From: Halorhabdus utahensis DSM 12940
GTDB taxonomy: Archaea > Halobacteriota > Halobacteria > Halobacteriales > Haloarculaceae
NCBI RefSeq assembly: GCF_000023945.1
Contig: NC_013158.1
Coordinates: forward strand, 1,178,001 to 1,242,000
Length of the DNA: 64,000 nt
Direction of reading: 5' to 3'
The notes beneath the pieces are model-generated. The model made no database searches. It was not told the DNA's origin and saw only the letters and a list, made by a program, of their open reading frames with translations. Below are positions 2,031 to 14,446 of this stretch, one piece after another; positions within the stretch are counted from its first letter, which is position 1; the number at the start of each line of letters is the position of its first letter. The translations under genes were made by a program, and so were the position numbers.

Positions 2031-3569
2031 TTAGGACCGCCAGTAGGCCCGCGTCAGCAGCACGAGCACGGGGAAGATCTCCAGTCGGCCGATCCACATC
2101 AGAAAGACCATCAGGAATTTCGAGGTCCAGGGGAACGAGAGGTAGTTCTCCATCGGCCCGACAGCGCCGAATCCCGGCCCGACGTTGCCGATGGTCGCCG
2201 CGATCGCGCTCATGCCGTCGAGCACTTGCAGTTCCATGCCGATCCGCCCGGCGTCGAGCATCAGGACGACGACGCTGAGGAAGAACAGCGCAATGTACAG
2301 CAGCGTGAAGGCGTGGATCCCCCGGATCGCCGACTCGTCGAGCGCCCGGCCACCGAGTCGGACGGGCTTGACGGCCTCGGGATGGACCGTCGTGAACAGT
2401 TCCCGCTTGATCGACTTGGCGATCACCAGCCACCGGACCATCTTGATCGCGCCGCCGGTCGATCCTGCCGAGCCGCCGAGGAACATCCCAAAGAGCAGCA
2501 GGTACTGGGCGGTCGTCGTCCAGCCGTTGAAGTCGAAACTCGCGTACCCCGTGGTGGTGACGATCGAGACCACCTGGAAGAGGCCGTGCCGGAGTGACTG
2601 CTCGACGCCCGCAAGACCGACAGTACCGGGGAGGCTCGATCCCACGAAGAGCACCACCGTGACGACGGCGGTCAGAGACGCCATCACGCCGGTGTAAAAT
2701 CGGAACTCCTCGTCCGCCAGTAGCGAGCGGGGGTTCCCCTGGACCAGCCCCCAGAACAGCGCGAAGTTGGTGCCGGCGACGACCATGAACGGGATGATCG
2801 CCCATTGGACGGCCGCCGAGAACACCTCGATCGAGTAGGCCTCCGGCGAGAACCCGCCGGTCGGCAGCGTCGTCAGGCCATGCGAGATCGCGTTGAACAG
2901 CGTCATCTCCTTGGCGAAGCCGGCGAGATGGAGGCCGTACAAAAGCGCCATTTCGAGGACGGTAAAGGCGAAGTAGGCGATCCACAGCACCCGGGCCGTC
3001 TCGGCGATCCGCGGCGTGAGCTTCTCGATGCCGGGGCCGGGCGCTTCGGCGTCCATCAGCTGTGCCCCACCGACCGAGAGTTCGGGCAGGATCGCGACCG
3101 CGAGCACGACGATCCCCATCCCGCCGAGCCACTGCGTCAACTGTCGCCAGATCAGGAGCGCGTGGGAGTGGTGCTCGACGCCGATGTTCTTCATGACCGT
3201 CGCCCCGGTCGTCGTGAACCCACTCATCGACTCGAACAGCGCGTTCGGGACCTGGGGCCAGCTAAGCGTCGACGCCGTGCCGTGCTCCGCGAGCAGATAC
3301 GGGAGCGTCCCGACGAGTGCGACCGCGAGCCACGTCGTCGCGACCATCAAAAAGCCCTCGCGTGCACCGATGTCCCGGTCGTCGTCGAGTTGGGAGAGTC
3401 CGTATCCGAGCAGCGTCGTCACGACGATGGTGACGAGGAAGGGGAGCCACCCCTCGCCGTAGATCAGCGCCGTGATGACGGGGATTGTCAGCGGCACCGC
3501 CAGATAGAGCAGCACGCGCCCAGTCAGCGAGAGACTGGCCCGCCAGTCGACCCGGAGATGCCCGTTCAT
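2031..3569 (-). CDS. trkH: TrkH-family potassium uptake membrane subunit
   Basis: A 512-residue polytopic protein that forms the ion pathway of a Trk/Ktr-type K+ uptake system. Four pore-loop filters can be traced: SGFTTTGATV, GLTTLPTGG, TTTGYAS and IGNVGPGFG, each lying between hydrophobic hairpins as expected for the four-fold pseudo-symmetric SKT family. Length is normal. The start codon overlaps the stop of the upstream TrkA gene by four bases (ATGA), indicating translational coupling of pore and its cytoplasmic RCK regulator. A second, diverged TrkH lies at 11515-13056. The substrate K+ (rather than Na+/K+ symport) is inferred from family. Confidence 0.92.
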   Translation of the reverse strand: MNGHLRVDWRASLSLTGRVLLYLAVPLTIPVITALIYGEGWLPFLVTIVVTTLLGYGLSQLDDDRDIGAREGFLMVATTWLAVALVGTLPYLLAEHGTASTLSWPQVPNALFESMSGFTTTGATVMKNIGVEHHSHALLIWRQLTQWLGGMGIVVLAVAILPELSVGGAQLMDAEAPGPGIEKLTPRIAETARVLWIAYFAFTVLEMALLYGLHLAGFAKEMTLFNAISHGLTTLPTGGFSPEAYSIEVFSAAVQWAIIPFMVVAGTNFALFWGLVQGNPRSLLADEEFRFYTGVMASLTAVVTVVLFVGSSLPGTVGLAGVEQSLRHGLFQVVSIVTTTGYASFDFNGWTTTAQYLLLFGMFLGGSAGSTGGAIKMVRWLVIAKSIKRELFTTVHPEAVKPVRLGGRALDESAIRGIHAFTLLYIALFFLSVVVLMLDAGRIGMELQVLDGMSAIAATIGNVGPGFGAVGPMENYLSFPWTSKFLMVFLMWIGRLEIFPVLVLLTRAYWRS

Positions 3570-4912
3570 ATTTTTGCGAGCGTCTCGTCGAGTGCGGTCG
3601 TCTCGACGAAGAAGACGACGTGGTCGCCGGCGTGGACGACGGTGTCCCCACGGGGCCGGACGAACTCGCCATCGCGGACGATCGCGCCCACGACGACGCC
3701 GTCGGGCAGGTCCGCGGCGGCCGACTGGATGGTCCGGTCGTGAAAGACGCTCTCGTCGTCGATCTCCACCTCGATGACTTCCGCCCGGTCGCTCTCGATG
3801 ATCGCCACGTTCTCGGCGTGTTCCTCGCGGGTGAACCGCGTGATCTCCTCGGCAGCCACCTCGCGGGGCTGGACGGCCACGTCGATGCCGACGGTCTCGA
3901 ACAGGTCGACGTACGAGCCCTCCTCGACGACGGCGATCGCCCGATCGGCGCCCAGTCGCTTGGCGAACAGCCCCGCGAGCAGGTTCGCCTCGTCGGACTC
4001 CAGGGTCGTGACGACGACATCGACGGCGTCGATGTTCTCGCTTTCGAGGAAGTCCCGATCGGTAGCATCCGCTTGAAGGACCGTCGTCTTCGGGAGCGAC
4101 TCGGCGAGAAACTGCGCGCGTTCGGGGTCGCGTTCGATCAGCTTCGGTCGGATCCCGCGACCCTCGAGGAGGCGTGCGGTCTGGTAACCCACTGAGCTCC
4201 CGCCGACGAGCAACACGTCGTGGTAGTCGTCGTCCGGCGCGACGGCGTGGCTGAACGCCGTCACCGCCTCGTCGGTCCCGATGACGATCACCTCGTCGCC
4301 GGCCGACAGCCGGGTATCCCCCCGCGGAACGACGATCTCATCGCAGGTGCCGTCGTCGTCAGGACACAGGATCGCTGCGAAGGTGAGATCGTCGAAGCGG
4401 TCGGCCTCGGCGACGGTCTGTCCGGCGACGGGACTCCCCGTGGCGAGTTCGAACTCGGCCATCTGGATCGTACCGTCGGCGAAGCTGTCGACGTCCCGGG
4501 CGGCCGGGAGGCCGATCATGCTGGCGATCTTCCGGGCGGTGAGCAGGTTCGTCCCGACCATGACGTCGACGCCGAGCGCCCCCTCGGCGTTCTCCCAGGT
4601 GTCTAAGTACTTGGTATTGCGAACGCGGGCGATGGTCGTGACGTCGTCGAGGGTCTTTGCGGTCCCACAGGAGACGATGTTGGTCTCGTCGTCGTCCGTG
4701 ACGGCGATCAACAGCTCGGCCGCCGCGAGGCCGGCCTCCTCTAACGTCTCGATCGCTGCGCCGTCGCCCTCGATCGCCAGGACGTCCAGTTCGTAGGTCA
4801 GCGCCTCGACGCGATCACCGTCGACGTCGACCACGACGACTTCGTGTTCGTCGGCCAGGCTTTCGGCGATGCTCGACCCGACCTCGCCGGCACCGACAAC
4901 GATCACGCGCAT
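3566..4912 (-). CDS. trkA: TrkA, cytoplasmic RCK regulator of Trk potassium uptake
   Basis: The 448 residues form two tandem RCK units, the normal size for full-length TrkA. The first Rossmann domain starts with VIVVGAGEVG (residues 3-12) followed by a TrkA_C domain near 140-215; the second nucleotide-binding domain begins at DVLLVGGSSVG and is followed by a last TrkA_C domain. Such proteins assemble as rings on the cytoplasmic face of TrkH and gate it in response to nucleotide binding. It precedes trkH with a 4-nt overlap. The gene for an Lrp/TrkA_C fusion lies upstream on the same strand, 138 nt away, and may control the pair. Confidence 0.92.
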   Translation of the reverse strand: MRVIVVGAGEVGSSIAESLADEHEVVVVDVDGDRVEALTYELDVLAIEGDGAAIETLEEAGLAAAELLIAVTDDDETNIVSCGTAKTLDDVTTIARVRNTKYLDTWENAEGALGVDVMVGTNLLTARKIASMIGLPAARDVDSFADGTIQMAEFELATGSPVAGQTVAEADRFDDLTFAAILCPDDDGTCDEIVVPRGDTRLSAGDEVIVIGTDEAVTAFSHAVAPDDDYHDVLLVGGSSVGYQTARLLEGRGIRPKLIERDPERAQFLAESLPKTTVLQADATDRDFLESENIDAVDVVVTTLESDEANLLAGLFAKRLGADRAIAVVEEGSYVDLFETVGIDVAVQPREVAAEEITRFTREEHAENVAIIESDRAEVIEVEIDDESVFHDRTIQSAAADLPDGVVVGAIVRDGEFVRPRGDTVVHAGDHVVFFVETTALDETLAKI

Positions 4913-5050: not shown

Positions 5051-5794
5051 TTACTGGGCCCCGAACACCGTCAGCGCGTCCGTCTCCAGGCCGGTCTTCG
5101 AGAACAGCGACACGACGTCGCCTGCCTGAATGACCGTCTCGCCTTTCGGCGTGAGGACGTCCCCGTCGCGTTCGATGCCGACGACGAGCATCTCGTCGGC
5201 CAGCAAGTCCGACTCGACGGCGTCCTCGATGGTTCGGTCGGCGATCTCGGCCCCCTCCGAGACCGTGAACTCGACGACCTCCGCGCCGCCGGCAAGCCCC
5301 ATGAAGTCCGTCAGCGACGGCCCCTTCGGGGCGTCCTCGGGACCGAACGGATCGTAGGGCCGGAAGTACTGCTCCTCGATGACGCTCTCGTCCTCGATCG
5401 TCAGTCCGAGATCCGACAGTTCGGCCGCGATCCGCCCGATGTCGTCCGTATCGGTCCCGACGGCAGTGACCGTGAGGTTCGTCGTCCCGGCCATCAACTC
5501 CCTGGCGGCAACGACGCCCGAGATGTCCAGGGCTGCCTGTGCGAGGTGGTCGCGATCCGGGATCGGAGCCGTACACCGGAACTCGTAGGTGACGTGTCCC
5601 TCGATGGCCTTGTAGTCGATGTCCGCGAGATAGCCCCGCAGGATCCCCTCCGTCTCGAGCTGGCGGATCCGGTTGCGGATCGTCGCCGCCGTCACCTCCA
5701 TCTCCTCGGCGATCTCCGGCGCTGCCGTGTTCCGGGCGTCCGCCGCCAGATAGTAGAGAATGCGCTTGTCGATCTCGTCGAGGCGATGGTCCAT
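5051..5794 (-). CDS. Lrp/AsnC-type regulator fused to a TrkA_C domain
   Basis: A 247-residue transcription factor with an N-terminal winged helix (residues about 3-60, DEIDKRILYYLAADARN and AATIRNRIRQLETEGIL), an Lrp-like ligand or oligomerisation domain (about 65-145), and a C-terminal TrkA_C (RCK_C) domain (about 165-245) ending in the typical AGDVVSLFSK pattern. TrkA_C domains bind small ligands in K+ transport regulators, so it may couple transcription of the adjacent Trk genes to such a ligand; that is inference. The ATG at 5794 is chosen over 5818 because the TATA-like TGATATATC at 5831-5839 would place the transcript start downstream of 5818. Confidence 0.85.
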   Translation of the reverse strand: MDHRLDEIDKRILYYLAADARNTAAPEIAEEMEVTAATIRNRIRQLETEGILRGYLADIDYKAIEGHVTYEFRCTAPIPDRDHLAQAALDISGVVAARELMAGTTNLTVTAVGTDTDDIGRIAAELSDLGLTIEDESVIEEQYFRPYDPFGPEDAPKGPSLTDFMGLAGGAEVVEFTVSEGAEIADRTIEDAVESDLLADEMLVVGIERDGDVLTPKGETVIQAGDVVSLFSKTGLETDALTVFGAQ

Positions 5795-6004
5795 GCGCGC
5801 GCTACGACCGTCTCGCATAATTACCTCCCGATATATCAGTGGCTGGCGAACCCGTCCACACGAAATATAAGACAGCCGTTACTATTTTCGGAATTTGTCC
5901 ATACTCGGCATTCATTTTCGTATCGAAAACAGAATCCGTGGATATATACCTTTTCGATAATCTAGCGGGAGGTAGACAGCGATCGGCAGACACGGCCACC
6001 ACCC
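5795..6004. promoter_or_regulatory. Divergent promoter region with TTTTCG palindrome
   Basis: This 210-nt AT-rich region separates the Lrp/TrkA_C regulator from the rightward Usp/RCK/APC genes. It has TATA-like elements for both directions (GATATATC near 5832-5839 leftward; GGATATATACC at 5939-5949 rightward). A perfect inverted repeat TTTTCG-TAT-CGAAAA lies at 5915-5929, and further TTTTCG copies occur at about 5886 and 5952. A GGGAGGT sequence at 5968-5974 resembles a Shine-Dalgarno site but is 30 nt from the ATG, too far to serve it. Confidence 0.6.
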
Positions 6005-6502
6005 ATGACCCAGCCAGACGACGAGTCGCCGGACGTCCCCGAGGACGTCCAGGCGGCGCTCGACGACAGTAGCGATCGACAGCTTCGAGAGATCATCCAC
6101 GACGCCCAGGCACGCCTCGAAGCACATCCGCCCCTGAACGAGGAGGTGCCCCTGGAGACGGGCGAGACGTTCGTCGGCGAGGAGGTCGAACTCGACGAGG
6201 CGATCGTTGAGGCATTCGAAACGACAGACGACGAGCTGCTTCGGGAGGTCGTCACGTACGCTCGTCAGTGCCTCGAGGACCGCCCACCGCTAACGGCGGT
6301 CATCGAAGCCCGGGACAACGAGGAACTCGTTCGAATGGAAGACGAAGGACCGTACACGACCGTCGTCGTCGAGCGGCCGGACGAAACGGGCGCGGCACGT
6401 GGCCCCTTCGCCTACATGGTCCAGTGGGAACCCCACGTCGAGGACGAGGGCAAATACAAGTGGCACTATCTCGGCCGCGTCTTCGACGAGGAGGAGACCT
6501 GA
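6005..6502 (+). CDS. Conserved haloarchaeal protein of unknown function
   Basis: A 165-residue, strongly acidic soluble protein. Two similar helical segments can be seen: DRQLREIIHDAQARLEAHPPL (about 24-44) and DELLREVVTYARQCLEDRPPL (about 76-96), suggesting an internal duplication. The C-terminal 60 residues look like a beta-rich domain with an aromatic end (YMVQWEPHVEDEGKYKWHYL). No enzyme motif is recognised. Its stop is one base before the GTG start of the UspA gene, so it is the first gene of the Usp/RCK/APC run and may share its control. Confidence 0.7.
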   Translation: MTQPDDESPDVPEDVQAALDDSSDRQLREIIHDAQARLEAHPPLNEEVPLETGETFVGEEVELDEAIVEAFETTDDELLREVVTYARQCLEDRPPLTAVIEARDNEELVRMEDEGPYTTVVVERPDETGAARGPFAYMVQWEPHVEDEGKYKWHYLGRVFDEEET

Positions 6503-6503
6503 C

Positions 6504-6947
6504 GTGGGCGAGTCGCTCTTCGGGCGCGTGGTGGTTCCGGTCGCGAGTCGCGACGACGCGGCGGCGACGGCGGCCGCACTCGCGCCATACATCGACGCAC
6601 CGGATCGAACAGTAATCGCCGTACACGTCATCGAGAAGGCCGACGGCGCACTCGACAAGGCCTCGGTCGAGCAGCGCGAGGCGGACGCCGAGGCGATGTT
6701 CGGGATCGTCACCGAGGGACTCGACGGGGTCGATGCCGCCCTCGAAACGGAGATCCGCTACGGGACCGACATCGCGGGGACGCTCGTCGAGACGGCGGAC
6801 GACGTCGCGGCGAGCGCGATCGTGTTCACGCCGCGGGGCGGTAGTCGATGGAAGCAACTCCTCTCGGGCGACGTGACCCACAACCTCGTCCACGAGAGCG
6901 ACGTGCCGGTCGTCGTCCTTCCCGATCGAGAGGTGAGCGACGCGTGA
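6504..6947 (+). CDS. UspA-family universal stress protein
   Basis: A 147-residue single-domain Usp protein. It begins with the beta-strand FGRVVVPVASRDDAAATA and ends with a PVVVLP strand; the segment TPRGGSRWKQLLSGDVTHNLV resembles the nucleotide-binding loop of the family (G-x2-G-x9-G) in modified form. The start is GTG at 6504, one base after the previous stop, which removes a 35-residue Arg/Ser-rich extension that overlaps the upstream gene. It lies directly before an RCK protein, and the same order recurs at 7886, pointing to a role in controlling transport. A nucleotide ligand is likely but not certain. Confidence 0.85.
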   Translation: MGESLFGRVVVPVASRDDAAATAAALAPYIDAPDRTVIAVHVIEKADGALDKASVEQREADAEAMFGIVTEGLDGVDAALETEIRYGTDIAGTLVETADDVAASAIVFTPRGGSRWKQLLSGDVTHNLVHESDVPVVVLPDREVSDA

Positions 6948-7015
6948 GCGAACGTGCCGGTCTGAGAGCGTCGGTATCGGCCGATCTAGCTGAGTGAACA
7001 TACTGAATAGGAGCC

Positions 7016-7702
7016 ATGTACGTCATCATCGTCGGTGCGGGAGACATCGGGACGCCACTGATCGACATCGCAACGCGATCAGGCAACGAGGTCGTCGTCA
7101 TCGAGCGCAACGCCGAACGGGCCAACCGGGCGGCCGATCGCTTCGACTGTCTCGTCCTCGAGGCGGACGCGACGACCAACAACACCTTAGAAGAGGCCGG
7201 CGTCGAGCAGGCCGACGCCGTGGTCTCGACGACCGACCGGGACGCGACCAACGTCATGGTGTGTCTGCTCGCCACGGAGTACGAGGTGCCGTCGATCCTC
7301 TCGGTCGTGCACAACCCCGAGCACATGAGCCTCTTCGAGCAGATCGGGGTGAACACCATCGAGAACCCCCAGCAACTCATCGCCGAGTACCTCTACCGGT
7401 CGGTCGCACGGCCGGCGATCGTCGATTACATGCGGATCGGTGAACAGGCCGAGGTCTTCGAGATCGCCGTCACCGAGAACGCACCCATGGCCGGGAAGAC
7501 GCTCACTGAAGCAGGAGAGGGTGACATCCTCCCCGAGGATACGCTGATCGTCGCCATCGACCGTGAAGGGGAGGACAGGCCACTGACGCCCCGCGGGAAC
7601 GTCCGGATCCGGCCGAACGATCTGTTGACGGTGTACTCGGCACGCGGGGCCGACCCGGAACTCACGGACGTCTTTGGCCATTACGAAGACCAGACAGCAT
7701 GA
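7016..7702 (+). CDS. TrkA-like RCK protein (RCK_N plus RCK_C), first copy
   Basis: The 228 residues contain one Rossmann-type RCK_N domain (VIIVGAGDIG at 3-12; about 1-135) and one TrkA_C domain (about 140-222), half the size of TrkA at 3566-4912. Such one-unit proteins form rings that gate K+ or cation transporters. It is closely related to the protein at 10739-11428: the N-terminal two-thirds is nearly the same, whereas the TrkA_C part differs more. No channel gene lies directly next to it; the nearest transporter downstream is the APC permease. Partner is therefore uncertain. Confidence 0.85.
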   Translation: MYVIIVGAGDIGTPLIDIATRSGNEVVVIERNAERANRAADRFDCLVLEADATTNNTLEEAGVEQADAVVSTTDRDATNVMVCLLATEYEVPSILSVVHNPEHMSLFEQIGVNTIENPQQLIAEYLYRSVARPAIVDYMRIGEQAEVFEIAVTENAPMAGKTLTEAGEGDILPEDTLIVAIDREGEDRPLTPRGNVRIRPNDLLTVYSARGADPELTDVFGHYEDQTA

Positions 7703-7813
7703 AACACTCGACCGACGCGGTCCCCACCGCACGCACTGGCGAAACGTCCAGCGATCGAGGCGGTGATTTGGGACTCCGTCATTTATTAGCCGGTCCAGTC
7801 TGTGGGTCCGGGT

Positions 7814-7882
7814 ATGATCGCCCCATCTACCGTGACAGCGCGGACAGCACGGGTCGACCGATCGTCGAGCCGGGGGCACTGA
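7814..7882 (+). CDS. Possible 22-codon leaderless upstream reading frame
   Basis: An ATG at 7814 lies about 30 nt after a TATA-like element (CATTTATTAG, 7778-7787), exactly where a leaderless start would fall. The frame (MIAPSTVTARTARV...) runs 22 codons and stops at 7880-7882, three bases before the ATG of the next UspA gene. It may be a translationally coupled leader, or its ATG may merely lie in a short 5' leader. It is short, and nothing beyond its position supports it. Confidence 0.35.
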   Translation: MIAPSTVTARTARVDRSSSRGH

Positions 7883-7885
7883 TCC

Positions 7886-8308
7886 ATGCCCGAGTCACTG
7901 ACGGGCCACCTCGTCGTGCCGGTCGACGACGCCGAGGACGCCCACGCCACGGCGACGGCACTCCAGGCTTACGCCGTCGAGAAAGTGACTGCAGTCCACG
8001 TCGTCGAGAAGGGGGGCGGGTCACTGGACACGATCCCGCTCGAACAGGCCGAGCAGCGAGCCGAGGAAGCTTTCGAGGCGTTTCGGGAGGTGATCCCGGA
8101 CGCAAACACGGAGCTCACGTATCACACCGACGTAGTCGAGGGGGTATTCGAGGTCGCCACCGACCGCGAGGCGACCGCCATCGCGTTCCACCCGCGTGGC
8201 GGGGGGCGACTCACGCAGTTCCTGTCGGGGGACACCGCACTCAGACTGATCACGGACGCCGACCGGCCGGTGATCGCTCTGCCGGACCCTGCCGAGGGAG
8301 GAATGTAA
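7886..8308 (+). CDS. UspA-family universal stress protein, second copy
   Basis: A 140-residue Usp domain related to the one at 6504: both share VVPV near the start, an AVHV-E-K-G-L pattern in the second strand and FxPRGGxR-x2-QxLSGD before the last helix, ending in PVIALP. The protein precedes an APC permease that itself carries two Usp domains, and an RCK protein, so it probably regulates this transporter. The ATG at 7886 is three bases after a possible leader frame. The ligand is not known; the G-x2-G-x9-G nucleotide loop is only partly kept. Confidence 0.85.
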   Translation: MPESLTGHLVVPVDDAEDAHATATALQAYAVEKVTAVHVVEKGGGSLDTIPLEQAEQRAEEAFEAFREVIPDANTELTYHTDVVEGVFEVATDREATAIAFHPRGGGRLTQFLSGDTALRLITDADRPVIALPDPAEGGM

Positions 8309-8353
8309 CACAAATGCTCACAGACTACTTCGAGACCGAGGTGAACGTGCTCG

Positions 8354-10732
8354 ATGAGTGAGACCGAACAGGAGTTGGCTCGCGACCTCGGCTTCCTCGA
8401 GGCCTACACCATCGGCCTCGGGACGATGATCGGCGCGGGCATCTTCGTCCTGCCGAGCATCGCGGCCAAGGCGGCGGGACCGGCGGCGATGGTCTCCTTT
8501 GCCCTGGGCGGTGTCGTCTCGCTGCTCGCCGCGCTGTCGCTGTCGGAACTCGCGACGGGCATGCCCAAGGCCGGCGGGAGCTACTACTACGTCAATCGGG
8601 CGCTCGGCCCCTTCTTCGGGAGTATCGTCGGCTGGGGGATGTGGGCCGGGCTGACCTTCGCGAGCGCCTTTTACATGCTCGGGTTCGGCCAGTATCTCCT
8701 CCCCTTGCTGACGCCACACGTCGATATCCTCGCCGAGATGACCGGGATCGGCAAGACCGTCGCCGCACTGGGGATGGCTATGCTGCTGACGGGCGTCAAC
8801 TACTACGGCGTCAAGGAGACCGGCGACCTCCAGAACGTCATCGTCATCACGCTGGTCGGACTGATTTTGGCCTTTCTCACGCTCGGCTTGCTCAGCGGTC
8901 CGACCATCGGCGAGTTCAACCCCGAAGGCTGGCCGGCCGTGGCCGCGACGGTCGGGACGGTCTACGTCTCCTTCATCGGCTTCGAGGTGATCGCGACGAG
9001 CGCCGAGGAGATCAAGAACCCGAGCCGGAACCTCCCGCTGGCGATGATCGCGGCGGTCGTCACGCCGACGATCCTCTACGTCGGCGTCATGTTCATCTCG
9101 ACCGGGACGATCCCGCTCGACGTGCTGGCGGATTCCGAGGTCCCGGTCAAGATCGTCGCCGAGGATATCCTCCCCGACTTCGCGTCGCTCGTCCCCGGGG
9201 TGTCGCCCTCGTTGCTCGCCTCGATCGGCGGGACGGTGATGATCCTCGGTGCGGTCCTGGCGACGGTTTCCAGCGCGAACGCGTCGATCCTCTCGGCGGC
9301 CCGGGTCAACTTCGCGATGGGCCGGGATCAGATCCTCGTCGAGTGGCTCAACGAGGTCCACGACCGCTTCCGGACGCCGTATCGCGCGATCACAGTGACG
9401 GGCATCATCACGCTCGTGTTGATTGCCATCGGCGTCGGGATCGGGACCCTCGCCGAGGTGGCGAGTTTCATGTACCTGGTGACCTACACGCTGGTCCACG
9501 TCGCCGTCGTCGTCCTCCGGCGGGCGAGCCCCGAGGCCTACGACCCGTCGTTCCGGATCCCGTCGGTGCTGTACCCTGTTGTCCCCATCCTCGGGGCGGC
9601 GGGCTGTCTCGGCGTCCTCGTCCAGATGTCGACGAACATGGTCCCGTACACGATCGCGGTCGGGAGCCTGAGCGTTACCAGTCCGTTCCAGTTGACGGTC
9701 GTCGGCATGATCGGGATCGTGCTGATCGGCTTCGGCATCGGGTGGTACTACCTCTATGCCCGCGATCGAGCCCCGTCGAAGAGTCTCGTCGGCGACGCGA
9801 TCGCGCCGACGCCGGCGGCCACCGCGGACGGCGATGACGTCTACCGGGTCGTGGTCTCAGTGGCGAATCCCGACACCGAACGCGACCTCCTCCGGAAGGC
9901 CGCGGCGAGTGCCCACGCCCACGACGGCGAGGCCGAAATCGTCGCCGTCAACGTCATCGAGGTGCCCGACCAGACCTCCCTCGCCCAGGACCTCACCTTC
10001 GAGGAGGAACGCGTCGATCGCCAACAGGAACTGCTGGCGGCGGCCCGCGACGTGGCGGTCGATCTCGATGTCGGCCTGCGAACCCGGGCGATCGTCGGCC
10101 GCGACGCCGCGTCGGCCGTCCTCGACGTCGTCGGGGAGGAGAACGCCGACCAGGTGTTGCTCGGCTGGACGGGCAAGCGGAGTCGCCGCGAGCACGTCCT
10201 CGGTTCGACGATCGATCCGATCGTCGGTCACGCCTCCTGTGATGTCACGCTCGTCAAGCGTGGCCCGGACCCGGATGACGGCGAGGAGATCATGGTTCTC
10301 GCCGGCGAGGGGCCACACGCCCCGGTCGCCGCCCGGCGGGCCGCCGAGTACGTGGCTTCGACCGAGGGCGCGTCGCTGACGCTGTTGAACATCCAGCCCC
10401 CCGCCGAGGAGGGCGAGGACGCCGTCGAACCCGTCGAAGCGGGCGAAGCACTGATCGAGGACCTCATCGAACAGGCCGACCTGACCGAGACGAGCTACGA
10501 GACGCGCGTCATCGTCGAGGAAGACACCCAGGACGCGATCCTCGAGACGGCCGCGGCGTACGATACGATCTGTGTCGGCGCGACCAGAGAGAGCGCCGTC
10601 TCCCAGGCGCTGTTCGGTTCACTGCCGGAGCGTCTCGGCACGGAACTCGATCGGACGGTCGTGGTGGCGCGCGGATCGGAACGTTCACCAATGTCGATGC
10701 AAGACGCACTTATCAAACGACTGGAGGGCTGA
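8354..10732 (+). CDS. APC-superfamily permease with two C-terminal Usp domains
   Basis: A 792-residue protein. Residues about 1-475 form a 12-helix amino acid-polyamine-organocation transporter; the first helix has the family motif GLGTMIGAGIFVLP and the intracellular loop keeps the E-x2-NPSRNLP pattern. A linker with DRAPSK leads to two cytoplasmic Usp domains (about 495-640 and 645-790), each beginning with a strand such as YRVVVSVANP or EIMVLAGEGP. Fusion of a permease to Usp domains makes nucleotide-linked control likely. It is flanked by UspA upstream and an RCK protein 6 nt downstream. Substrate cannot be told; a cationic or neutral amino acid is plausible. Confidence 0.9.
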   Translation: MSETEQELARDLGFLEAYTIGLGTMIGAGIFVLPSIAAKAAGPAAMVSFALGGVVSLLAALSLSELATGMPKAGGSYYYVNRALGPFFGSIVGWGMWAGLTFASAFYMLGFGQYLLPLLTPHVDILAEMTGIGKTVAALGMAMLLTGVNYYGVKETGDLQNVIVITLVGLILAFLTLGLLSGPTIGEFNPEGWPAVAATVGTVYVSFIGFEVIATSAEEIKNPSRNLPLAMIAAVVTPTILYVGVMFISTGTIPLDVLADSEVPVKIVAEDILPDFASLVPGVSPSLLASIGGTVMILGAVLATVSSANASILSAARVNFAMGRDQILVEWLNEVHDRFRTPYRAITVTGIITLVLIAIGVGIGTLAEVASFMYLVTYTLVHVAVVVLRRASPEAYDPSFRIPSVLYPVVPILGAAGCLGVLVQMSTNMVPYTIAVGSLSVTSPFQLTVVGMIGIVLIGFGIGWYYLYARDRAPSKSLVGDAIAPTPAATADGDDVYRVVVSVANPDTERDLLRKAAASAHAHDGEAEIVAVNVIEVPDQTSLAQDLTFEEERVDRQQELLAAARDVAVDLDVGLRTRAIVGRDAASAVLDVVGEENADQVLLGWTGKRSRREHVLGSTIDPIVGHASCDVTLVKRGPDPDDGEEIMVLAGEGPHAPVAARRAAEYVASTEGASLTLLNIQPPAEEGEDAVEPVEAGEALIEDLIEQADLTETSYETRVIVEEDTQDAILETAAAYDTICVGATRESAVSQALFGSLPERLGTELDRTVVVARGSERSPMSMQDALIKRLEG

Positions 10733-10738
10733 TAGCGC

Positions 10739-11428
10739 ATGTATATCATCATCGTCGGCGCGGGCGATATCGGCACACCGCTGATCGACATCGCGACGCG
10801 ATCGGGCAACGAGGTCGTCGTCATCGAGCACAACACCGAACGGGCCAACCGAGCGGCCGACCGCTTCGACTGTCTCGTCCTCGAAGCCGACGCCACCACC
10901 AACGCAACCTTAGAGGACGCCGGGGCCGCACAGGCCGACGCGATCGTCTCGACGACCGACCGGGACGCGACGAACATCATGGTCAGTCTGCTCGCAAAGG
11001 AGTACGACATCCCGGCGATCCTCTCGGTCGTCCACAACCCCGAGCACATGAACCTCTTCGAGCAGATCGGGGTGAACACGATGGAGAACCCCCAGGAACT
11101 CATCGCGGAGTACCTCTATCGGGCGGTCGCACGCCCCGCCATCGTCGACTACATGCGCATCGGCGAGAACGCCGAAGTCTTCGAGATCACCGTCACCGAG
11201 AACGCACCTGTCGCGGGGAAGACTCTCCAGGAGACCGCCGACGAGGACCTGCTCTCTGATGACGTCCTCGTCGTCGCGATCGAACGCGAGAGGGCCAGCG
11301 AGCCGATCACGCCGCGCGGGAACACGACCATCCACGCGGGCGATCTCCTGACCGTCTACTCCGCCGTCGGTGCCGAACCGGCGATCACGGACATCTTCGG
11401 CCACTACGAGGATCGGATCGAGGACTGA
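10739..11428 (+). CDS. TrkA-like RCK protein (RCK_N plus RCK_C), second copy
   Basis: A 229-residue paralogue of 7016-7702, with GAGDIG at 7-12 and a TrkA_C domain at the C-terminus ending near LLTVYSAVGAEP. It starts 6 nt after the APC permease gene and is followed, after 86 nt, by a TrkH gene, so it could serve either transporter. The two copies differ at many synonymous sites in the conserved N-terminal part, showing an old duplication kept by selection. Confidence is good for the family and low for the partner. Confidence 0.87.
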   Translation: MYIIIVGAGDIGTPLIDIATRSGNEVVVIEHNTERANRAADRFDCLVLEADATTNATLEDAGAAQADAIVSTTDRDATNIMVSLLAKEYDIPAILSVVHNPEHMNLFEQIGVNTMENPQELIAEYLYRAVARPAIVDYMRIGENAEVFEITVTENAPVAGKTLQETADEDLLSDDVLVVAIERERASEPITPRGNTTIHAGDLLTVYSAVGAEPAITDIFGHYEDRIED

Positions 11429-11514
11429 CAGACAATGGGGATCGGATCGATGACTGACCGGGCCAGGCAACTCCAGGCAGCGAACGAAACCGTTGCGACA
11501 GAGACCACACAGCC

Positions 11515-13056
11515 ATGAACGGGACGACAGCAACCATCGGACGCGACGTGGGGCGGATCCTCGAAGCACTCGGCGGCCTGATGATCGTCTCGATCGTCGT
11601 CCCGCTCGTCTGGGGCGAATGGTTCGGCGCGCTCGCCTTCGGCATCTCGGCGCTCGTCCCGCTGGCCGTCGGCTACGGGCTCCACCGCCGCTTTGCCGAG
11701 GCCGACTCCCCGTCGCGGCTCCACGGCATGGTCGTCGCCGCGACTGGGTGGCTGTTCGTGGGCATCTTCGGGTCGGTTCCCTTCCTGCTGGTCGCCTGGG
11801 GCGTCCACCTCGGTCTCCCGACCGGACTGGAGGGGACGCCGACACTCGCGGCCTTCCGGGAGCCACTCAACGCCGTCTTCGAGAGCATGAGCGGCTTCAC
11901 CGGGACCGGGCTGACGATGACCGACGACGAAGCAGTGCTCCCGCGGACGCTGCAGTGGTGGCGGACGTTCAGCGAGTGGATCGGCGGCGTGGGCGTGATC
12001 GTCCTCACCACGGCGATCCTGGCTCGCCCCGGATCGGGGTCGCTCACGCTCTACGAGAGCGAGGCGCGATCCGAGAAGATCCACCCGAGCATCGTCTCGA
12101 CGGTCCGGACGATCTGGTGGATCTTCATCCTCTTCACGTTCGTCTCGATCCTCGCGCTGTTCGCGGCCGGCATGCCGATCTGGGGGGCGATCAACCACGC
12201 GATGACCGGCCTCGCCACGGGCGGGTTCTCGATCACGGACAACTCGATCGCGACCTACGACAGTGCCCTCATCGACGCCGTGTTGATCCCGATCATGCTG
12301 CTTGGCTCGATCGCGTTCCCGGTCCACTACCTCATCCTGCAGGGCGACCTCCGGAACATCTACGAGGACCTCCAGACCCGGTGGGTGTTCATCTACATGA
12401 GTCTGGGGTCGGCGCTGCTGTGGGCGTTCCTCTACGTCGGCCCCTACGACTCCCCCCTGTCCGCACTGCGCTACGGGGGCTTTCAGTTCGTCTCGGCGGC
12501 GACCTGTACCGGGTTTCAGACGGCCGTCGACGCGACGAACGTCGCCCTCGGCGCGTGGCCGGCCCAGGCCCAACTCCTGGTCGCCTTCGGCATGTTCGTC
12601 GGCGGCGCAGCCGGCTCAACCGTCGGCGGAATCAAGCTCATCCGTGGACTGACGCTGATCAAGGGGATTCGATATCAGATCGGCGACGTCTTCTACCCCG
12701 ACAGCGCCGTCCGTCGGCTCGACATCGACGACCGCCGACTCACCGAGGCGGAGGCAAACCGGGAGTTCGTCGAGGCGGCGATCATCGCCGTCCTCTGGAC
12801 GACGTTTCTCGTCGTCGGGACGGTTCTGCTGCTGGTCATCTTACCCGCAGAGGAGTTCTCACTGGCGAACGCGTTCTTCGAGGTGGCGAGCGCCCAGGGC
12901 AACGTCGGTCTGTCTTCGGGTATCACCGGGCCCGAATCGCTCCCGACCCTCGGCAAAATATCCTTCCTCGGCCACATGTGGATCGGTCGCCTGGAGATCA
13001 TCCCGGTCCTGGTCGCGGCTCGGACGCTGTTGAGTCGTGGGGGGATGTATCAATGA
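11515..13056 (+). CDS. TrkH-family cation transporter membrane subunit, second type
   Basis: A 513-residue SKT-family pore protein, clearly different from the trkH at 2031-3569. Filter-like loops are SGFTGTGLTM, GLATGGFS, TCTGFQT and AQGNVGLS, with the glycines that coordinate K+ kept. A further typical element is GGAAGSTVGGIKLIRGL. Its stop overlaps the start of a 72-residue membrane protein by four bases, and an RCK protein gene precedes it. Together these make a second Trk-like system. K+ selectivity is inferred from filter glycines. Confidence 0.9.
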   Translation: MNGTTATIGRDVGRILEALGGLMIVSIVVPLVWGEWFGALAFGISALVPLAVGYGLHRRFAEADSPSRLHGMVVAATGWLFVGIFGSVPFLLVAWGVHLGLPTGLEGTPTLAAFREPLNAVFESMSGFTGTGLTMTDDEAVLPRTLQWWRTFSEWIGGVGVIVLTTAILARPGSGSLTLYESEARSEKIHPSIVSTVRTIWWIFILFTFVSILALFAAGMPIWGAINHAMTGLATGGFSITDNSIATYDSALIDAVLIPIMLLGSIAFPVHYLILQGDLRNIYEDLQTRWVFIYMSLGSALLWAFLYVGPYDSPLSALRYGGFQFVSAATCTGFQTAVDATNVALGAWPAQAQLLVAFGMFVGGAAGSTVGGIKLIRGLTLIKGIRYQIGDVFYPDSAVRRLDIDDRRLTEAEANREFVEAAIIAVLWTTFLVVGTVLLLVILPAEEFSLANAFFEVASAQGNVGLSSGITGPESLPTLGKISFLGHMWIGRLEIIPVLVAARTLLSRGGMYQ

Positions 13057-13480: not shown

Positions 13481-14446
13481 ATGACACGGTCTACCCGCCA
13501 GCGGGAGCGCGAGCGCGAGTCCGAGACCGAAACCGACGAACAAGAGGGGGTGGAGGAGTGTCCGGAGTGCGGATCCGATAGCCTGGTGAAGGACGCGGAC
13601 CGGGGTGAACTCATCTGTGAGGACTGTGGGCTGGTCGTCGAAGAGGGGAACATCGACCCCGGTCCCGAGTGGCGGGCGTTCAACCATCAGGAACGTCAGG
13701 AGAAGTCCCGCGTGGGCGCGCCCACGACCCAGACGATGCACGACAAGGGGCTGACCACGACCATCGACTGGAAAGACAAGGACGCCTACGGCCGTTCGAT
13801 CTCCAGTAAGAAGCGCAGCCAGATGCACCGCCTGCGAAAGTGGCAGGAACGCATTCGGACGAAGGACGCCGGCGAGCGCAACCTCCAGTTCGCCCTGAGC
13901 GAGATCGACCGGATGGCGTCGGCGCTTGGCGTCCCCCGCTCCGTACGGGAGGTCGCTTCGGTCATCTATCGACGGGCGCTGGACGACGACCTCATCCGTG
14001 GCCGATCGATCGAGGGGGTCGCCACTTCGGCGCTGTACGCTGCCTGTCGGAAGGAAGGCATCCCCCGGAGCTTAGAGGAGATCAGCGAGGTCTCCCGGGT
14101 CGAACGCAAGGAGATCGGCCGTACCTATCGGTACATCTCCCAGGAACTCGGCCTCGAGATGGAGCCCGTCGACCCCAAGAAGTACGTCCCCCGCTTCTGT
14201 TCGGAACTCGAACTCAGCGAGGAGGTCCAGAGCAAGGCCAACGAGATCATCGAGACCACTGCCGAGAAGGGACTGCTGTCGGGCAAATCCCCGACTGGCT
14301 ATGCCGCCGCCGCGATCTACGCTGCCTCGCTCCTCTGCAACGAGAAGAAGACCCAACGCGAGGTCGCCGACGTCGCCCAGGTGACGGAAGTCACGATCCG
14401 GAACCGCTATCAGGAGCAGATCGAAGCGATGGGCATCCACAGCTGA
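13481..14446 (+). CDS. tfb: Transcription initiation factor IIB (TFB)
   Basis: This 321-residue protein recruits RNA polymerase to TBP-bound promoters. A zinc ribbon has C27, C30, C46 and C49 ([18 protein letters not shown]); the B-reader follows around PGPEWRAFN; two cyclin-fold repeats span about 120-210 and 220-315 and end in the helix-turn-helix that reads the BRE ([20 protein letters not shown]). The N-terminus is charged ([10 protein letters not shown]). The ATG at 13481 is preferred because a TATA-like element lies 30 nt upstream and the upstream extension reads through promoter sequence. Haloarchaea carry several TFBs; which this is cannot be told. Confidence 0.97.

Follow-up and report, generated by a model that had tools for sequence, protein, structure and literature searches.

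A candidate regulator-operator pair for a divergent potassium uptake operon of Halorhabdus utahensis, centred on an Lrp-type protein with a fused TrkA_C domain

The window, a stretch of 64,000 nucleotides of the Halorhabdus utahensis genome, carries a gene for an Lrp/AsnC-type regulator between two sets of K+ genes. One set, trkA and trkH1, lies downstream of the regulator on the same strand; the second (6005-13056), with the gene order hyp-usp-rck-usp-APC-rck-trkH, is separated from the regulator by a palindrome. The features on which the analysis draws are listed below with their coordinates, strand and the basis of their assignment.

2031..3569, minus strand: trkH1, downstream of trkA (Pfam PF02386, E 7.8e-73)
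3566..4912, minus strand: trkA, downstream of the regulator (Pfam)
5051..5794, minus strand: Lrp/AsnC-type regulator fused to TrkA_C (Trh2-like), 247 aa (ORF list, Pfam, AlphaFold2 model, structural matches)
5102..5278, minus strand: TrkA_C (RCK_C) domain of the regulator, residues 173-231 (Pfam PF02080, E 1.2e-09; VIA-align match to 3jxo_B)
5363..5596, minus strand: RAM-fold middle domain of the regulator, about residues 67-144 (AlphaFold2 model and VIA-align; no Pfam match)
5654..5782, minus strand: HTH_AsnC-type domain of the regulator, residues 5-47 (Pfam PF13404, E 1.4e-08)
5884..5900, no strand: place of the -30 copy of the palindrome; half-site TTTTCG only, no match in the window (-12.4 bits)
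5914..5930 (core 5915-5929), no strand: central palindrome ATTTTCG-TAT-CGAAAAC, candidate operator (19.1 bits)
5942..5947, plus strand: ATATAT, putative TATA-like hexamer of the divergent operon, 11 bp after the end of the palindrome
5945..5961, no strand: place of the +31 copy, overlapping the TATA region; half-site TTTTCG, weak in the window (1.1 bits)
6005..6502, plus strand: hypothetical protein, first gene of the divergent operon (ORF list; no Pfam or NCBIfam match)
6447..6947, plus strand: usp1, universal stress protein (Pfam PF00582, E 1.2e-12; no NCBIfam match)
7016..7702, plus strand: rckB, TrkA_N-TrkA_C gating subunit (Pfam)
7886..8311, plus strand: usp2, universal stress protein (Pfam PF00582, E 8.5e-08)
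10739..11428, plus strand: rckC, second TrkA_N-TrkA_C gating subunit (Pfam)
11515..13056, plus strand: trkH2, TrkH-type K+ translocation subunit (Pfam PF02386, E 1.8e-79)

The protein that opens the divergent operon (6005-6502) is acidic and 165 amino acids long, and its gene overlaps the Usp gene behind it. Within the same cluster, 8354-10732 encodes an amino-acid permease (APC) to which two Usp stretches are fused, as read from Pfam, and a TFB (TFIIB) gene follows trkH2 at 13484-14446 on the plus strand.

The open reading frame of the regulator, 5051-5794, includes the stop codon; a mechanical ORF list places its start further out, at 5818. The start at 5794 is compatible with a leaderless message: in many close orthologues a GCATAATTA-like block was seen by eye about 20-30 bp upstream, and on the minus strand this block reads as a TATA box. 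The initial annotation had described the product as an Lrp-type factor carrying a TrkA_C domain, and this was borne out by Pfam, since both profiles scored above their cut-off of 27 bits: PF13404, the AsnC-type HTH of the Lrp/AsnC (FFRP) family, with 34.8 bits, and PF02080 with 38.4 bits, the latter at the C-terminal end of a complete Lrp protein. The GntR HTH stayed below its own cut-off of 27 (16.4 bits), whereas the AsnC-type passed. TrkA_N (PF02254), which is present in rckB, rckC and trkA of the window, gave no match in the regulator at E<=0.01.

An AlphaFold2 model of the regulator (55 relatives; mean pLDDT 83.3, pTM 0.64) agreed with this architecture. Its first 150 residues resemble Lrp (2cyy: Z 12.0, rmsd 3.3, 147 aligned), and the middle domain, with the elements E68-75, H78-88, E94-99, E107-113, H116-129 and E132-139, has a RAM fold, residues 67-140 superposing on the stand-alone RAM protein 2e1a (Z 11.2, rmsd 1.4, 73 aligned). 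The C-terminal part matched the TrkA_C domain 3jxo_B (Z 12.4, rmsd 1.9, 85 aligned; all comparisons by VIA-align). Within TrkA_C, residues V178, A192 and P216 were kept in all 55 family sequences, and R209 and D226 in 54 of 55. Matches to the regulator at E<=1e-52 were found in 250 of 392 genomes searched within the order, and among the matches listed they were nearly full length. The H. utahensis genome (3.1 Mb) contains 19 TrkA_C matches.

The neighbourhood was compared in 60 stretches around homologues, most of about 14 kb (numbered here with the prefix L), against 12 proteins of the window. Thirty loci, the window included, were taken as close (regulator identity of at least 64%; near-duplicates and L114 kept). 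A divergent RCK gene of the rckB/rckC type was found in 29 of these 30, a divergent relative of trkH2 in 28 and a relative of the hypothetical first gene in 25. The downstream pair trkA-trkH1 accompanied the regulator in only two, namely the window and its relative at 99%; contig ends truncate some of the other loci. Across the stretches, L111, L112, L113, L114, L123 and L126 are among those cut in this way. The proposal that the regulator stands next to trkAH was correct for the window, where the genes share a strand, but did not hold for a conserved neighbour; linkage to the downstream trkA-trkH was dropped on this count, and it is the divergent operon that travels with the regulator.

Sister species of the same genus (L101, L102, L103 and L118) have a comparable K+ cluster in which the regulator is an Lrp-TrkA_C paralogue of 45-48% identity and the palindrome is missing. 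As such a paralogue occupies a comparable cluster, the comparison suggests that regulators at this place have been exchanged. Relatives of the usp2-APC genes also lie beside paralogous Lrp-TrkA_C genes, in L102-L104 and L118-L120.

The palindrome at 5915-5929 had been put forward as the likely site of the regulator. Its position was exact, and as a predicted site it gained from the comparison of orthologues, in which the motif is kept and linked to a TATA-like hexamer. Palindrome-constrained EM on 25 non-redundant divergent regions (the near-duplicates L067, L070, L071 and L077 were left out, as was L114, where neither a divergent operon nor a site was found) yielded the motif ATTTTcg-nnn-cgAAAAT with a log-likelihood of 103.2, against 31.0-36.4 in eight shuffled sets at equal search effort; six shuffled sets at less effort gave 27.4-36.6. 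Sites of at least 12 bits numbered 23, in 21 of the 25 loci, within -20 to 420 of the regulator start, and four elsewhere in 339 kb. Three of these four precede the divergent operon in L085, L107 and L110, where a longer divergent region holds a minus-strand ORF and the site stays with the operon, not with the regulator. On its longest reading this ORF would cover the site in L107 and L110. By eye the ORF looks membrane-spanning in the three loci, and the L085 reading had no Pfam match.

In 21 of the 25 loci a TATA-like hexamer follows 10-13 bp after the end of the site, the distance being 12 bp in 15 of these 21; the list of hexamers was made after viewing the sequences, and the one picked in L085 may not be the real TATA box. 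A TATA-linked site was absent from L080, L108, L111 and L113. TATA-linked sites of at least 10 bits occurred in 18 loci, whereas 200 permuted motifs gave 0.7 on average and 9 at most. This count replaced one made from the extrapolated start of the divergent gene, which proved unusable owing to the poor alignment of the hypothetical protein at its N-terminal end. Further copies lay 29-32 bp from the best site: 18 were counted, whereas 300 shuffles of the flanks gave 0.12 on average and never more than 2. The shuffles overstate significance, since the orthologues have a common ancestry and the same regions served to train the matrix. The place at -30 reached at least 5 bits in 13 of the 25 loci, and that at +31, over the TATA region, in 10; in the window the central copy alone is good, the flanking places scoring -12.4 and 1.1 bits. 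The motif controls bear on place and spacing more than on independent proof.

In the whole genome, WTTTTCGNNNCGAAAAW was found within one mismatch at a single place, that of the window itself. At two mismatches there were 18 further places, compared with nine in all for a reversed-pattern control. A looser palindrome gave 18 places, not including the window's own site, which ends in C, against four in its control, and with this excess the genome may hold further targets. The other places amounted to 34 distinct ones; of the 22 taken as loci, 18 fall within ORFs longer than 600 bases, and the highest score among the 22 was 13.8 bits, against 19.1 for the site in the window. With these 22 places mostly inside ORFs and of lower score, a regulon in the H. 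utahensis genome was dropped.

What was computed, then, is the domain make-up of the regulator, the conserved divergent operon, the palindrome at an almost constant distance from the TATA-like hexamer and, in many relatives, extra copies three helical turns away. The reading that we consider probable is that this Trh2-like Lrp/AsnC regulator has a local job, controlling the divergent K+ uptake operon through the palindrome, with TrkA_C taking the ligand. Dimers of the regulator would bind the palindrome beside the BRE and, in relatives with two or three phased copies, adjacent dimers would occupy the same face of the DNA cooperatively. The ligand would be taken by TrkA_C and not by the RAM pocket, changing DNA affinity or oligomeric state, and the operon hypothetical-Usp-RCK-...-TrkH would be activated from the BRE-adjacent palindrome. 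One published result counts against this circuit: deletion of trh2 had no significant effect on growth in the test reported (PMC4236453).

Between the two possible directions of control we lean slightly towards activation of the divergent operon, because the sites sit adjacent to the BRE with three-turn spacing, as in archaeal Lrp activators; Ptr2, LysM and Ss-LrpB activate from a site just upstream of the BRE (PMC2995911). Repression is the main rival because 10 of the 25 loci carry a copy over the TATA region, about 31 bp downstream of the central one, a place that would suit repression at high occupancy. The regulator would then be mainly a repressor and autorepressor whose bound palindromes cover the promoter and exclude TBP/TFB until ligand releases it. 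Autoregulation is common among archaeal Lrp proteins (PMC2995911), and the stretch L089 has a 19.7-bit palindrome upstream of the regulator with no recognised K+ gene in the 4.5 kb examined, which hints that the protein may regulate its own gene. Against repression, the copy that is best conserved lies upstream of the BRE, from where the precedents activate; the window has only a weak copy at the TATA region; and in L085, L107 and L110, with their longer divergent regions, the site accompanies the operon and not the regulator. On balance we regard a mainly repressing role as possible, though the less probable of the two. It is decidedly unlikely, in our judgement, that the palindrome is the site of another Lrp protein or a general haloarchaeal upstream element while the TrkA_C-Lrp protein acts elsewhere. 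The genome does hold ten HTH_AsnC places, nine of them in other genes, and A/T-rich motifs with a conserved CG are known for several Lrp proteins of Halobacterium (PMC4236453). Yet the presence of the site tracks the closeness of the neighbouring regulator: a site of at least 11 bits within 1 kb was found in 24 of 26 loci at identities of at least 64% (L114 kept, the four near-duplicates L067, L070, L071 and L077 out), in 5 of 8 at 55-63% and in 4 of 23 below 55%. Related RCK operons beside distant Lrp paralogues had no copy of 11 bits in L093, L101 and L117, though L097 has one of 10.8 bits.

The nature of the ligand admits further alternatives. The initial annotation had proposed that the factor senses the same ligand as the channel gate; with TrkA_N missing, this can only mean what RCK_C binds. 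NAD or ATP is thus an unlikely ligand, since the nucleotide-binding half of TrkA is absent. RCK_C proteins with c-di-AMP as their ligand include BusR, KtrA, KtrC, CpaA and KhtT (PMC8517857), and the regulator could be an archaeal counterpart of BusR, independently built on an Lrp scaffold, in which TrkA_C would bind c-di-AMP made by DacZ and pass the signal to transcription of the K+ uptake operon. A diadenylate cyclase of the DAC family scored above cut-off in 57 of 59 genomes, that of H. utahensis included; Haloferax volcanii cannot do without its cyclase gene and shows an osmotic phenotype when c-di-AMP is lowered (PMC6741144). KhtT with c-di-AMP (7agv_H) matched the model with Z 11.0, rmsd 1.9 and 80 aligned residues by VIA-align. 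BusR was absent from the 50 VIA-align matches listed, and the profile match of the regulator to BusR 7b5u was weak (E 1.2). No conserved His was found in the TrkA_C columns of 26 close sequences, and the position aligned by eye with BusR N157, a residue given both as Asn157 and as Asp157 in the source (PMC8517857), was Val in all 26 and Asn in 16 of 55 overall. The c-di-AMP pocket of BusR is thus not evidently conserved in this TrkA_C, as judged from the aligned residues, and we consider the c-di-AMP reading quite unlikely. The accessible part of PMC8646023 makes no mention of RCK, TrkA, a c-di-AMP receptor or binding, or Lrp. TrkA_C might also serve purely for oligomerisation without a ligand, the regulator responding to changes in its own level or to an amino acid bound in the RAM pocket. 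RCK_C domains do dimerise without ligand, as in BusR (PMC8517857), and the regulator does have a RAM fold; in Trh2, however, this domain has been held to be probably non-functional (PMC4236453), and the conservation of V178, A192, P216, R209 and D226 speaks for more than a dimerisation surface, although these residues could equally be structural. We consider this alternative unlikely.

The relation between site and regulator was also followed in single loci and on a protein tree. In L088, palindromes of 16.5 and 14.6 bits lie 124 and 880 bases upstream of the regulator start; the second is 55 bases before the matched RCK start, and other ORFs separate that RCK gene from the regulator. The palindrome upstream of the regulator in L087 scores just 9.1 bits. 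By eye, the regulator in L087 and L089 adjoins a uvrA-like ORF and not a K+ operon; in L089 Pfam gave no confirmation of uvrA on the first 150 residues of this ORF. On a tree of 58 regulators (57 of the 60 stretches, L067, L070 and L071 being dropped, plus the window), the presence of a site within 600 bp required 10 changes, compared with 19.5 in shuffles; the label is clustered on the tree yet is no clean mark of a clade. Among the same 58, Ala at residue 37 of the recognition helix coincided with the site in 33 and both were missing in 18, while 6 had Ala without the site and 1 the site without Ala. Over independent pairs this association was not significant (4 pairs, median p 0.25), and Ala37 is a lead only, because the residue was chosen after looking.

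Haloarchaea balance salt by a very high internal K+ concentration (PMC6741144), and in the literature searched we found little on the regulation of their K+ uptake genes. The locus combines a ligand domain of the channel type, one strong predicted operator and a conserved target operon, and so offers a circuit that can be tested. Should TrkA_C bind c-di-AMP, this would give the messenger made by the essential DacZ a route to archaeal transcription, and the regulator would be an archaeal c-di-AMP-responsive transcription factor; no c-di-AMP-linked transcription factor is named in the accessible text of PMC6741144. In summary, comparative sequence analysis gives good support to this regulator and its palindrome as a candidate pair for control of a K+ operon, the regulator being a fusion protein of a type described before.

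Neither the fusion nor the ligand idea is new. Plaisier et al. (2014; PMC4236453) described an Lrp protein of Halobacterium salinarum NRC-1, Trh2 (VNG1285G), to which a TrkA-C domain is fused, proposed it as a K+/NAD+ sensor and found no significant overlap of its targets and motif with those of other Lrp proteins; a paper from 2021 (PMC8229911) tabulates haloarchaeal Lrp proteins with HTH and TrkA_C and calls the exact function of the domain unknown. Trh2 and the HTH-TrkA_C Lrp proteins of Haloferax mediterranei have the same domain make-up as the present regulator, a likeness of type; the accessible text of these two papers describes neither the operator nor its placement before a divergent K+ operon, nor the phased copies. 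A search mostly of papers outside subscription, without supplements, found none that describes the present operator, and the operator and its conserved target, the divergent K+ operon, appear to be what is new here. With Ss-LrpB, Ptr2 and LysM the present sites share a dimer site just upstream of the BRE and a centre-to-centre spacing of two or three helical turns; those proteins have other targets, and TrkA_C is not mentioned for them in the accessible text (PMC2995911). The gating subunits TrkA and KtrA have TrkA_C in common with the regulator (4j9v_B: Z 12.2, rmsd 2.3, 85 aligned by VIA-align), but they carry the nucleotide-binding domain TrkA_N, which the regulator lacks. BusR, the GntR-RCK_C regulator that controls the osmolyte transporter busA in response to c-di-AMP, shares with it an HTH joined to RCK_C, an osmotic target and an operator of two motifs three turns apart, like the present copies; it differs in having a GntR HTH and a coiled coil, where the present regulator has an Lrp HTH and a RAM domain (PMC8517857).
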